Assembly: GCA_014859225.1 (NCBI GenBank)
Contig: JACUUP010000028.1
Coordinates: forward strand, 1 to 14,469
Reading direction: 5' to 3'
DNA from: Candidatus Aerophobota bacterium
GTDB lineage: Bacteria; Aerophobota; Aerophobia; Aerophobales; B3-G15
Length of the DNA: 14,469 nucleotides
Within the stretch, counting starts at the first letter, position 1. Each line of letters starts with the position of its first letter. The position numbers and the translations under genes are program-made. The notes below the pieces were generated by a model. That model ran no database searches and was not told the DNA's origin. It saw nothing but the letters and a program-made list of their open reading frames with translations. Positions 3,585 through 13,751 of this stretch are shown here, piece by piece.

Positions 3585-3664
3585 AAAAAAGGGGACAGAT
3601 TTATTTATTATGTTTTACATATAGTAGAGGACACGCTATGAAAAATAAATCTGTCCCCTTTTTT
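3585..3664. repeat. Element E1: 80-bp unit with perfect 22-bp inverted termini
   Basis: Bases 3585-3606 and 3643-3664 are perfect inverted copies of AAAAAAGGGGACAGATTTATTT, enclosing 36 bases. The inner part contains TTTTACATATAGTAG and then AGAGGACACGCTATG (to 3640), which reads as a Shine-Dalgarno site and ATG that run straight into the right terminus. The same termini and inner stretch recur in E2 (6562-8143) and, degenerated, in E3 (13519-13736). The size and lack of any gene suggest a MITE-like, internally deleted derivative of a mobile element. As RNA it would fold into a long hairpin flanked by A and T runs, so it may also end transcription of the aldolase gene, whose stop is 64 bases away. 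Confidence 0.85.
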
Positions 3665-5828: not shown

Positions 5829-6587
5829 ATGAAAAGGGCAAGACATCTTCACGTGGGAACCTCTGGGTGGCACTATACGCACTGGAAGGGTCCTTTCTAT
5901 CCATCTCATCTGGCTACCAAAGAGTTTCTTGCCTACTACAGCCGATACTTTTGCACCACAGAGATCAACAATACCTTTTACCAACCAGCAAAGAAAAAAA
6001 GTCTTACCCGCTGGCGAAATACTGTGCCGGACGACTTTGTTTTTAGCGTAAAAGCCAGCCGCTATATCACTCATTATGCAAAATTAAAAAGCCCACAACG
6101 GCACTTGTCTCCTTTTCTGGAAGCGATACAATCACTTGGACACCAGCTGGGATGTATCCTTTTTCAGCTTCCACCCCGCTGGCGTTGCAATGTAGGGCGT
6201 CTTACCTCATTTCTCAAACTTTTACCAGAGCAGTATCGCTATACATTTGAGTTCCGTGACCCTAGCTGGTTCTGCCACGAAGTATACGAAGCGCTAAGCA
6301 AGTACAAAGTTGCATTCTGCATATATGAGCTCGGTGATGTCTGTTCACCCAAGAAAGTTACCACTGATTTCGTGTACGTCCGACTGCATGGCCCAGCGGG
6401 TCCTTATCGTGGGAAATACTCAACCGAACAACTCGCTGGATGGGTTGGCGCTTTTTCCAGTTGGCAAAAGCAGGATAAGACAATCTACTGCTACTTTGAT
6501 AATGACGAGAAAGGATTTGCAGTGGCAAACGCCCTGGAGTTACAGCACATGATAGTGAAAGAAAAAGGGGACAGATTTATTTATTGA
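5829..6587 (+). CDS. DUF72 family protein with repeat-derived C-terminus
   Basis: A 252-residue TIM-barrel-like DUF72 protein (YecE family), function unproven. ATG 5829 is chosen because an AGGAGG site ends 9 bases upstream and the family motif starts at once: HVGTSGWHYTHWKGPFYP (residues 8-25). Further landmarks are EINNTFYQ (45-52), FVFSVKASRYITH (70-82), LFQLPPRW (111-118), TFEFRDPSW (139-147), VYVRLHGP (182-189) and CYFDNDEKGFAVANAL (221-236), the normal end of the barrel. The open frame extends upstream to 5667, but that part overlaps the CPBP gene and lacks family sequence. The last residues, EKGDRFIY and the stop, are encoded by the left terminus of element E2, so the original tail has been cut off or replaced after the conserved core. 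Confidence 0.9.
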   Translation: MKRARHLHVGTSGWHYTHWKGPFYPSHLATKEFLAYYSRYFCTTEINNTFYQPAKKKSLTRWRNTVPDDFVFSVKASRYITHYAKLKSPQRHLSPFLEAIQSLGHQLGCILFQLPPRWRCNVGRLTSFLKLLPEQYRYTFEFRDPSWFCHEVYEALSKYKVAFCIYELGDVCSPKKVTTDFVYVRLHGPAGPYRGKYSTEQLAGWVGAFSSWQKQDKTIYCYFDNDEKGFAVANALELQHMIVKEKGDRFIY

Positions 6588-8143
6588 CATATATTTTACA
6601 TATAGTAGAGAATACGCTATAGTATAAGGATATGTAGTGTAGATACGAAGTGAGCTATGATTTTCACGCATAGCAGTAGATAAGCTCAATAATCCATGAG
6701 TGAGGTGCAAGAATGAACATGTCCCTGCAGTTCCTGGGAGCTGCCAACAATGTAACTGGTTCGAGTTACCTGCTGGACGTTGATGAAACCAGGATCTTGG
6801 TTGACTGTGGTCTTTACCAGGAAAGAGAATTCAAGCACAGAAATTGGGAGCCATTTCCGGTTGATGCAAAAAGTATACAATTTGTCCTGCTCACCCATGC
6901 ACACCTTGACCATTGCGGTCTTTTGCCCAAGCTGGTTAGAGAGGGGTTTGAGGGTAAAATCATATGCACCTCTGCCACTAAAAAAATAGCTCAAATAGTG
7001 CTTGTAGATGCTGCACGCATCCAGGAAGAGGATGCTAAGCTCAAGAAAGAGAGGCATCAGCGGGAGGGAAGAAAAGGACCTTACCCGGAGCTACCTCTTT
7101 ACACTCAGCAGGATGCTGAGGCTGTTTTTTCTCTGTTTGAAACGGTAGAATACGAAACAGAGCTCAAGCTCAACCGCTCAGTGAAGACCATTTTTTATGA
7201 TGCTGGACACATACTTGGCTCAGCCATGGTTAAGGTTAACGCTTCATCGGATAATGAACAAAGAGCCATCGTATTCTCCGGTGATGTGGGACGCTGTGAT
7301 AAACCCATTGTGCGTGACCCTACGTTTATCAGGCAGGCTGACTACATCCTCGTAGAATCCACCTATGGTGACCGAGCTCTTGAAGGCTCACTTGATACGA
7401 AAGAGAAGTTAGCCGATACGGTCAACTCCACTGAACGCAAAGGGGGAAATATAGTAATACCGAGTTTTGCCATAGAGAGAACTCAGGAACTTCTGTATGT
7501 TTTAAATGAACTTCTCATAGAGGATCGTATCTCTCATCTTATGACCTTTGTGGACAGTCCCATGGCGATCAATGTCATAGATGTTTTTAAACAACACCCA
7601 GAGTACTTTGATGAGGACATGTTGCAACATATTGAAAGTGAGAGCTCCCCTTTTTATTTTAAAAACCTTAAGCTCACAAGAACTACCAGCGAATCCAAGG
7701 CAATCAATCACCTGAGAGGTTCCTGTATTATTATTGCTGGCTCTGGAATGTGCACTGGAGGTAGAATAAAGCATCATCTCATCCACAATATTTCCCGTCC
7801 AGAGTCCAGTATCCTATTTGTAGGCTACCAGGCAAAAGAAACGCTGGGACGGCAAATAGTCGGTGGAGCCAAAGAGGTGAGAATTCATGGTTCAATGCGT
7901 ACGGTAAAAGCCGAGGTCAGCCAAATCAACGGTTTTTCAGCCCATGCCGATAAAAATGAACTTTTAAAATGGTTGGCTGGTTTTGAGCTACCACCCCGGA
8001 AGCTATTTGTCGTTCATGGGGAAGATAACGCTACATCAGAATTTGCCAGGTTGGTGAGAGAAAACTATGGCTGGAACGTAGCTATTCCAGAGTACAAGAG
8101 CAAAGCCATCTTAGACTAAGAAAAATAAATCTGTCCCCTTTTT
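6562..8143. mobile_element. Element E2: inverted-repeat-bounded unit carrying an RNase-like gene
   Basis: The left end, 6562-6582, and right end, 8123-8143, are perfect 21-bp inverted copies of the E1 terminus. The left end continues into TTTTACATATAGTAGAG and ATACGCTAT (to 6620), matching E1 with a 5-base difference in length. The right end keeps the GAAAAATAAATCTG junction seen in E1. E2 therefore looks like E1 with about 1.5 kb between ACGCTAT and GAAAAATAAATC. Each end carries only its own half, as expected for one element rather than two separate insertions. It holds a single complete gene and no transposase, so any mobility would need help in trans. I see no target duplication. My recollection that such termini occur near IS200-like/REP-associated transposases is unverified. 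Confidence 0.6.
6713..8119 (+). CDS. Beta-CASP metallo-beta-lactamase-fold ribonuclease (YSH1/CPSF-like)
   Basis: A 468-residue enzyme with the metallo-beta-lactamase core and a beta-CASP insert, full length for the bacterial RNA-processing exonuclease group (COG1236). The two-zinc site is intact: THAHLDHCG (61-69, HxHxDH), H166 in DAGHILGS, D191 in SGDVGR and H435 in VHGED. Beta-CASP motifs follow: ESTYGDR (215-221, motif A), SGMCTGGRIKHHL (344-356, motif B region) and NGFSAHAD (406-413, motif C). Relatives cleave or trim RNA. The start has GAGGTG five bases upstream. The gene lies wholly inside E2: its TAA at 8117-8119 is followed after 3 bases by the right terminus. I see nothing broken, so it should be active. 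The link to the element is positional. Confidence 0.93.
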   Translation: MNMSLQFLGAANNVTGSSYLLDVDETRILVDCGLYQEREFKHRNWEPFPVDAKSIQFVLLTHAHLDHCGLLPKLVREGFEGKIICTSATKKIAQIVLVDAARIQEEDAKLKKERHQREGRKGPYPELPLYTQQDAEAVFSLFETVEYETELKLNRSVKTIFYDAGHILGSAMVKVNASSDNEQRAIVFSGDVGRCDKPIVRDPTFIRQADYILVESTYGDRALEGSLDTKEKLADTVNSTERKGGNIVIPSFAIERTQELLYVLNELLIEDRISHLMTFVDSPMAINVIDVFKQHPEYFDEDMLQHIESESSPFYFKNLKLTRTTSESKAINHLRGSCIIIAGSGMCTGGRIKHHLIHNISRPESSILFVGYQAKETLGRQIVGGAKEVRIHGSMRTVKAEVSQINGFSAHADKNELLKWLAGFELPPRKLFVVHGEDNATSEFARLVRENYGWNVAIPEYKSKAILD

Positions 8144-8176
8144 CTTCTGACCCTCTCTTCACTCTCTTCAAGAAGG

Positions 8177-9088
8177 TTACCTTGTCAGGGGCCAGGTGCA
8201 AGCCGCTGCTTTTCTAATTTGTGCTTGGTGCCTTGGGCAGAGCGCGTTACCCTCATGCAGACGGCTTGCGCGAAAATGCAGGCAGATATGTCCGTTGAAT
8301 ACATTGTCCAGAATAGACTGACCGCCATGAGGATAGCCATGGATGGAACCTGCCACCTGGAGGCCGTTGAGGTGCACGATTACGGCACGTCTCTCCCAGC
8401 TCCAGTTACCACCATAGATTCTACGCAAAACCTGGGTATCCTGGCGGGTAAGCGGTTCAACATCGGCATGGTTACTCCCGTCATACCTGCGTATGCGAAA
8501 GCTCAGTCCAGTTTCCACATCGGTAAGTATGGCTCCAGCCCCACGAGGAAACAGTCTATCCACGTCTCGCCAGTGCAAATCGCTGATTGTTGGCGTATCC
8601 TCGTCCGGTATCTTGAGCGTCGTTCCCACACGCAGGATCTCGGAACTGTCAAGATTATTCAATCTCTGAATCTGTTCCACCGTGGTATTCCAGCGCCGTG
8701 CAAGCCCCCAGAGCGTATCACCGGCTCGCACCCGGTAGACTCTTAAAGATAACGAGCTGCTTCCTTTCTCCTCCAGTGCCCTCCAGGTAGCAGGACCAAC
8801 CACTCCATCTGCTTGCAAGCCGAGGTAGTCCTGGGCAAGTATTACTCCCAGCCGGGTTTGCAGTCCAAAAATTCCATCTGCAGGACCAGCCATAAAACCG
8901 CGCTCTATTAGTTGTTTTTGCACATCCCGCACCGCATCTCCCCGAGCACCGGGAAACAGGTAACGCGAATCTGCTCTACTGCAAGAAGAAAGACTGCAAA
9001 CAAAAGCACCAGAAAACACTACAAAAATAAGACAAAGGATTGTCCATCTTTGAATTGAAATAGTCAGCCTTGCTCTTTGTTTTTTCAT
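8177..9088 (-). CDS. Secreted peptidoglycan-binding/LysM protein with a His/Cys-rich C-terminal domain
   Basis: A 303-residue envelope protein. Residues 1-36 form a signal peptide with a basic start, a hydrophobic core and a possible lipobox LSSC (33-36), so it may be a lipoprotein. Residues 46-107 are a peptidoglycan-binding type 1 domain (GDAVRDVQKQL, GFMAGPADGIFG, GVVGPATWRAL). Residues 117-161 are a LysM domain (VYRVRAGDTLWGLARRWNTT, then LRVGTTLKIP). The C-terminal part (184-295) matches a domain I recall from anaerobic Gram-positive bacteria. Its recognisable points are SNHADVEPLT (205-214), WSWERRAVIV (229-238), IHGYPHGG (249-256) and GHICLHF (266-272). The histidines and cysteine look catalytic or metal-binding and loosely recall L,D-transpeptidase ends, but I cannot assign an activity. 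It is transcribed away from the permease and has only a weak ribosome-binding site. Confidence 0.82.
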   Translation of the reverse strand: MKKQRARLTISIQRWTILCLIFVVFSGAFVCSLSSCSRADSRYLFPGARGDAVRDVQKQLIERGFMAGPADGIFGLQTRLGVILAQDYLGLQADGVVGPATWRALEEKGSSSLSLRVYRVRAGDTLWGLARRWNTTVEQIQRLNNLDSSEILRVGTTLKIPDEDTPTISDLHWRDVDRLFPRGAGAILTDVETGLSFRIRRYDGSNHADVEPLTRQDTQVLRRIYGGNWSWERRAVIVHLNGLQVAGSIHGYPHGGQSILDNVFNGHICLHFRASRLHEGNALCPRHQAQIRKAAACTWPLTR

Positions 9089-10970: not shown

Positions 10971-11174
10971 CTTTGATATTGAAAACTCCAAATGTCAAGA
11001 CCTGACCCTCTGAAATTTGACTTCTCTTTTTCTCTGTTAGAAATAGTGCTGATAGAAATTGTAGTCAAAAATAAATGTTCAAAACCTGAACCCTTTTTAC
11101 CTTTACCACTTTGCTTGTTTTTTAATCCCTCAGCTCCTTGTAGTCTCTATCGCTTACATGAAACTATCTCCGGG

Positions 11175-13518: not shown

Positions 13519-13736
13519 AAAAATGGGGACAGATCTATTTATTGTCAGGACACGGTATGTCTACAGAATATGCACAGAGAAAGCGACAAAAAGCAGGGTC
13601 GGAGGTGACATTCCGCAAGAAGAGCAGGGATACTTGGAAAAATAGTCCATAGAGAAAAGGTAACAGATAGTCTCCGAGTCTATTGGAGACGGTGTCAAGG
13701 GAAACTATACCTACTATAAATCTGCCCCCCCTTTTT
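13519..13736. repeat. Element E3: degenerate 218-bp member of the GGGGACAGAT repeat family
   Basis: The left end (13519-13541) reads AAAAATGGGGACAGATCTAT and the right end (about 13714-13736) reads TATAAATCTGCCCCCC with a T-run, an imperfect inverted pair matching the E1 and E2 termini. Inside, CAGGACACGGTATG (13546-13559) corresponds to the GGACACGCTATG junction of E1, while the TACATATAGTAG part is missing. The rest is unlike E1 or E2. It fills most of the gap between the ATPase start (13443) and the toxin stop (13752). Confidence 0.6.
13557..13652 (+). CDS. Possible 31-codon ORF inside E3
   Basis: ATG 13557 lies six bases after AGGA at the conserved GGACACGGTATG junction and opens a frame starting MSTEYAQRKRQKAGSEVTF and ending at TAG 13650-13652. 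The peptide is strongly basic. I recognise no family. It may be what remains of the gene originally carried by the repeat family, or a chance frame. Confidence 0.25.
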   Translation: MSTEYAQRKRQKAGSEVTFRKKSRDTWKNSP

Positions 13737-13751
13737 ATCGTCGTTTAGGTT

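Follow-up and report, generated by a model that had tools for sequence, protein, structure and literature searches.

A beta-CASP ribonuclease gene between paired ends of the TIRYT kind in a Candidatus Aerophobota genome

The window, that is the whole stretch of 14,469 nucleotides analyzed here, carries an intact beta-CASP ribonuclease gene enclosed by two perfectly inverted termini that match the ends of a transposase-bearing element elsewhere in the same genome. The arrangement is best explained, in our judgment and with moderate confidence, by one non-autonomous shell, made up of a right-type end and a left-type end that carries its leader (a 'TIRtron' without transposase), around a ribonuclease gene that had long been resident.

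Results

Paired termini around the ribonuclease gene

A repeat search of the window identified 24-nt arms at 6559-6582 and 8123-8146 that form a perfect inverted repeat (100% complementarity, spacing 1540 nt). A preliminary description of this DNA had reported inverted termini of 21 bp, and they thus prove to be longer than stated. The left-type terminus (terminal inverted repeat, TIR; AAGAAAAAGGGGACAGATTTATTT, plus strand, 6559-6582) continues into ATTGACA, a sequence also found at this point in the transposase-bearing element at C2, and from 6562 onward its first 28 nt equal the left end of that C2 element, with no difference. The right-type terminus (AAATAAATCTGTCCCCTTTTTCTT, minus strand, 8123-8146) begins 3 bases past the stop codon of the ribonuclease open reading frame (plus strand, 6713-8119), as had been described. 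Both ends are in the correct orientation: the one on the left is of the left type, the one on the right of the right type.

The same two ends, together with the leader, occur as an empty hairpin dimer, E1 (plus strand, 3585-3664), whose 27-nt arms at 3585-3611 and 3638-3664 are 93% complementary and whose predicted fold as single-stranded DNA has an energy of −21.9 kcal/mol (z −9.5). The left-end leader of the ribonuclease unit (plus strand, 6583-6620, ending in ACGCTAT) is 90% identical over 31 nt to E1 positions 3609-3639, and E1 is the only comparable match in the genome for the leader beyond the terminus. The earlier statement that the junctions match E1 on both sides holds: the left side aligns to E1 over 59 columns (86%) as far as ACGCTAT and the right side over 28 nt (96%; CTAaGAAAAATAAATCTGTCCCCTTTTT), and the left and right parts of the ribonuclease unit together make up E1 with no remainder. 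Moreover, the E1 homology on the left ends exactly at the start of E1's right arm, and the same arm is found at 8123.

It is possible, if on balance unlikely, that two independent insertions bracketed a resident gene by coincidence, a right-end-less E1-like copy having landed after the DUF72 gene and a solitary right-type end after the ribonuclease stop codon. Except in dimers and transposase copies, however, a left-type end with leader is seldom seen, and such a history must also accommodate a perfect 24-bp repeat and a left-hand homology that stops where E1's right arm begins, with that arm reappearing at 8123. We favor one shell over two unrelated insertions because of the polarity of the ends, the leader shared with E1 only, and breakpoints that correspond to E1's two halves.

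The left neighbor is a DUF72 gene (plus strand, 5829-6587; PF01904 over residues 24-241), to which the left terminus contributes the last codons and the stop (..KEKGDRFIY*; region 6550-6587), and relatives' proteins end near residue 240. The gene upstream of the C2 element likewise has a terminus-encoded C-terminal tail, KKGDRFIFSSLVFPVL* (L012:5860-5907). Since termini read in frame form C-terminal tails in both genes, insertions appear to replace the stop codons of their neighbors. The convergent right neighbor encodes a LysM/peptidoglycan-binding protein (minus strand, 8177-9088; PF01476, PF01471). When the flanks are joined at an A-run, the DUF72 gene gains an in-frame stop four codons on, which fits a single insertion and is not significant.

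The ribonuclease gene is the sole gene of the 6559-8146 unit, and no transposase remnant was found between leader and gene. The earlier suggestion that a transposase had been deleted in favor of this gene thus loses ground, and the lack of any such trace also counts against a single shell, as does the abundance of solitary ends.

The ends belong to a REP-type transposase

A gene for a Y1 tyrosine transposase (PF01797) lies between the same ends, 754 bp apart, at C2:6357-7120. Its 230-aa product scores 79.2 bits against NF047646, the NCBI model of REP-associated tyrosine transposases (cut-off 80), and has no C-terminal helix-turn-helix extension, a feature of TnpA-REP of subclass 2.1. The termini carry GGGGACAG, which matches the GGGGWSAS motif of the published TIRtron/TIRYT repeats, described as single, dimeric and grouped (PMC3733652, PMC6006769). 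These features identify the termini as TIRs that belong to a tyrosine transposase of the REP type (Y1, HUH) and of the TIRYT kind.

The agreement with TIRtron/TIRYT elements (PMC3733652; PMC6006769, subclass 2.1) extends to a Y1 transposase gene placed between long GGGGWSAS TIRs, to TIR repeats that are single, dimeric or grouped, and to an overlap between a TIR and the 3' end of the transposase gene, but in the present genome one of the pairs has a host ribonuclease gene inside it where a transposase gene would be expected. REPINs and RAYTs share a related transposase, inverted dimers that fold into hairpins and a mostly intergenic location; in the present family, by contrast, the repeat is a TIR and not a REP hairpin, and the GTAG foot of the palindrome that characterizes REPINs and REPs is absent from the ends.

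A second transposase of the same kind, at C77 (L010:1400-2400), has GGGGTCAGGTCTTGCAATAT ends and a C-terminal helix-turn-helix; this C77 enzyme is a relative of the C2 transposase, with GGGGTCAG ends. Ends of the CAAGACCTGACCC type, related to those of the C77 transposase, are present in the window near 11000.

A third copy in the window, E3 (plus strand, 13520-13738), is a decayed pair of the same ends (13520-13540 and 13716-13738). Over 110 nt its interior (13596-13704) shares 75% identity with the 3' part of the C2 transposase gene, and E3 is therefore an internally deleted transposase element. It speaks for the favored reading in that ends of this family again frame what is left of a transposase gene.

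In the C2 element, the transposase start is preceded by TTGACA-16-TAAAAT within the left end, and the transposase stop codon lies inside the right end. The left end of the ribonuclease unit contains a promoter-like TTTACA-17-TATAGT sequence (plus strand, 6595-6623) with 10 of 12 consensus bases and a second site, TTGACA-18-GAGAAT (6584-6613), likewise with 10 of 12. The second hexamer of the 6595-6623 site straddles the end of the E1 homology and reads TATAGT at the ribonuclease copy, where alone it is complete, and TATGAA in E1. From these matches we infer that the element's end may drive transcription of the ribonuclease gene, just as it would for the transposase gene in C2.

The ends are complementary over 24 nt and other ends are located just past stop codons, features that would also suit regulatory or RNA-stabilizing repeats, in which a hairpin forms from both ends of a transcript and the ends are not transposon ends at all. 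We consider this highly improbable: ends of this family also flank a transposase gene and transposase remnants, and a transcript starting from the promoter predicted within the left end would be without the left arm.

The repeat family across the genome

The 16-base core GGGGACAGATTTATTT occurs 57 times with at most one mismatch in the 1.8-Mb assembly, and the reversed control pattern does not occur in the genome, so the repeat is not due to chance. The search for the termini in this genome and its relatives, proposed as a check in the preliminary description, was thus successful only in the former: exact copies of the core are missing from all 16 phylum relatives. In a set of 369 more distant genomes, 8 unrelated ones have such copies.

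The copies comprise 24 solitary ends, 12 close inverted hairpin dimers (two with an extra tandem end) and further pairs, namely those around the C2 transposase, the ribonuclease and the decayed E3 interior; a C19 pair, 388 bp long, encloses a second repeat family. Apart from the ribonuclease pair, none of the pairs holds a non-transposase gene of its own. Termini standing singly beside unrelated genes had been named as evidence against a paired element; the 24 solitary ends are such cases, yet paired copies exist too.

At C19 (L016:1860-1920 of the present genome, G000) a 583-codon open frame takes its first codons from a terminus (ATGAAAAATAAATCTGTCCCC, MKNKSVP..), and the ATG-terminus string of this frame is also present in E1. 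Solitary ends on C6, C189 and C17 have about 115 nt in common and terminate in a GGTCTGACCC-type end, and we therefore regard them as hybrid elements. Hybrid elements at L014, L030 and L037 measure about 130 bp and have a GGGGACAG end on one side and a GGTCTGACCC end opposite.

The distribution of the ends also bears on the alternative of two insertions, which retains a real, if minor, share of our confidence because solitary ends are common enough. Many of the 24 begin within about 25 bases past a stop codon, as they do in other, unrelated phyla, and three gene-sized intervals (C2, C236, C264) are bracketed by directly oriented ends. When 26 ends were placed uniformly, with approximate contig sizes, at least one inward-facing pair within 1.6 kb arose in 12% of simulations; given five close pairs, at least one was inward-facing in 76%. 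In a tally based on manual reading of the genome-wide core matches, two of the five close non-dimer pairs face inward, and random orientation yields at least two inward pairs 37% of the time.

The ribonuclease gene and its history

The enclosed gene encodes an intact 468-aa metallo-beta-lactamase ribonuclease of the TTHA0252/YSH1 type with lactamase-B, Beta-Casp and RMMBL domains (PF16661, PF10996, PF07521). As described earlier, the zinc and beta-CASP motifs are complete: HAHLDH, GH, GDVG, VEST, FSAHAD and VHGE all align with those of TTHA0252, which is also the nearest solved protein (E=2e-85). Domain order, catalytic motifs and size are those of bacterial ribonucleases of the TTHA0252 type, from which the present gene differs in context only. 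No PADLOC match to a defense function was obtained for it. Identity with Cas14 of CRISPR type VII was considered and rejected, the score being 407 bits against a cut-off of 800.

The gene is single-copy in this genome. Orthologs 60-67% identical to it are present in 6 of 16 phylum relatives, in differing neighborhoods, and neither such termini nor anything resembling paired ends of another inverted-repeat family flanks them within the stretches examined. A seventh relative, G010, has an internally deleted remnant in which the first 32 or so codons are fused to a later internal segment (L076:6640-6762). No relative shares the locus, since full-length DUF72 matches in the phylum are only 31-42% identical and lie elsewhere, and no full-length homolog of the LysM protein was found in the phylum. 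In G001 (L072/L073) and G015 (L074/L075) the assembly is interrupted within the ribonuclease gene, and the two pieces overlap identically over about 125 bp, a possible sign that the sample contained the gene in more than one variant or context.

In phylogenetic analysis the ribonuclease copies of the phylum form one clade (support 99/97), within which the copy studied here stands on its own branch, whereas an AlaRS tree groups this genome with G001; some exchange of the gene inside the phylum is therefore likely. One clear and recent lateral transfer, between two genera, involves G007 and G012, whose ribonuclease copies are 91% identical compared with 68% for AlaRS. Their common block (L069:6159-7749, L071:6752-8490) comprises the gene and the tail of the upstream gene, with no terminal repeats, which argues that the gene has moved in the phylum by other means. 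A foreign origin is ruled out by the single phylum clade and by GC and GC3 values like those of neighboring genes. By all that its sequence indicates, the ribonuclease gene is an ordinary gene, long resident in the phylum and not imported cargo.

These observations weigh on the proposal that the unit is a working non-autonomous transposon, mobilized in trans by the C2 transposase with the ribonuclease as its cargo. The identity of its ends with those at the C2 transposase gene, a patchy occurrence of the gene in the phylum and its mixed neighborhoods would suit it. Against it stand the single copy of the gene, the lack of the ends in any phylum relative and the G007/G012 transfer, in which part of the adjoining gene was carried along but none of the ends, and we consider it improbable. 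Of the earlier description as cargo in a non-autonomous element, the mobile-element ends, the transposase copy at C2 and the fit of polarity and junctions to one element are retained, and movement as cargo is not supported.

Discussion

The preferred reading, one shell around a resident gene, can be put as a tentative sequence of events. Repeats of a TIRYT transposase have spread in this one genome in three forms: an element that includes the transposase gene, dimers of the hairpin kind, and ends that stand alone. An E1-like dimer or a transposase element would then have become joined with the ribonuclease gene inside the convergent DUF72/LysM interval, so that the gene takes the place held by the transposase gene in the C2 element, and the left end is predicted to give it a promoter. 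A second copy of the ribonuclease unit was not found in the genome, no empty site was seen in the relatives, none of which shares the locus, and none of the 16 has these ends by exact core match. A bolder version, in which a TIRYT-type single-strand transposase system swapped its own transposase gene for a host RNA-processing gene, moves this cargo and expresses it from a left-end promoter, seems to us improbable.

MITEs with passenger genes, for example the composite TIME units (PMC4133298, PMC13367494), likewise have non-autonomous ends that enclose a gene with no role in transposition. As far as the available portions of those accounts go, their ends are Tn3-derived and mobilization is reported, which sets them apart from the present unit.

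The repeats belong to a known class, the enclosed gene is ordinary and resident, and there is a single example, from a fragmented metagenome assembly. The published accounts considered here treat TIRYT and RAYT repeats as miniature elements and do not mention cargo genes. If our reading is correct, a gene framed by a left and a right end would show that such ends can capture genes and supply them with a new promoter.
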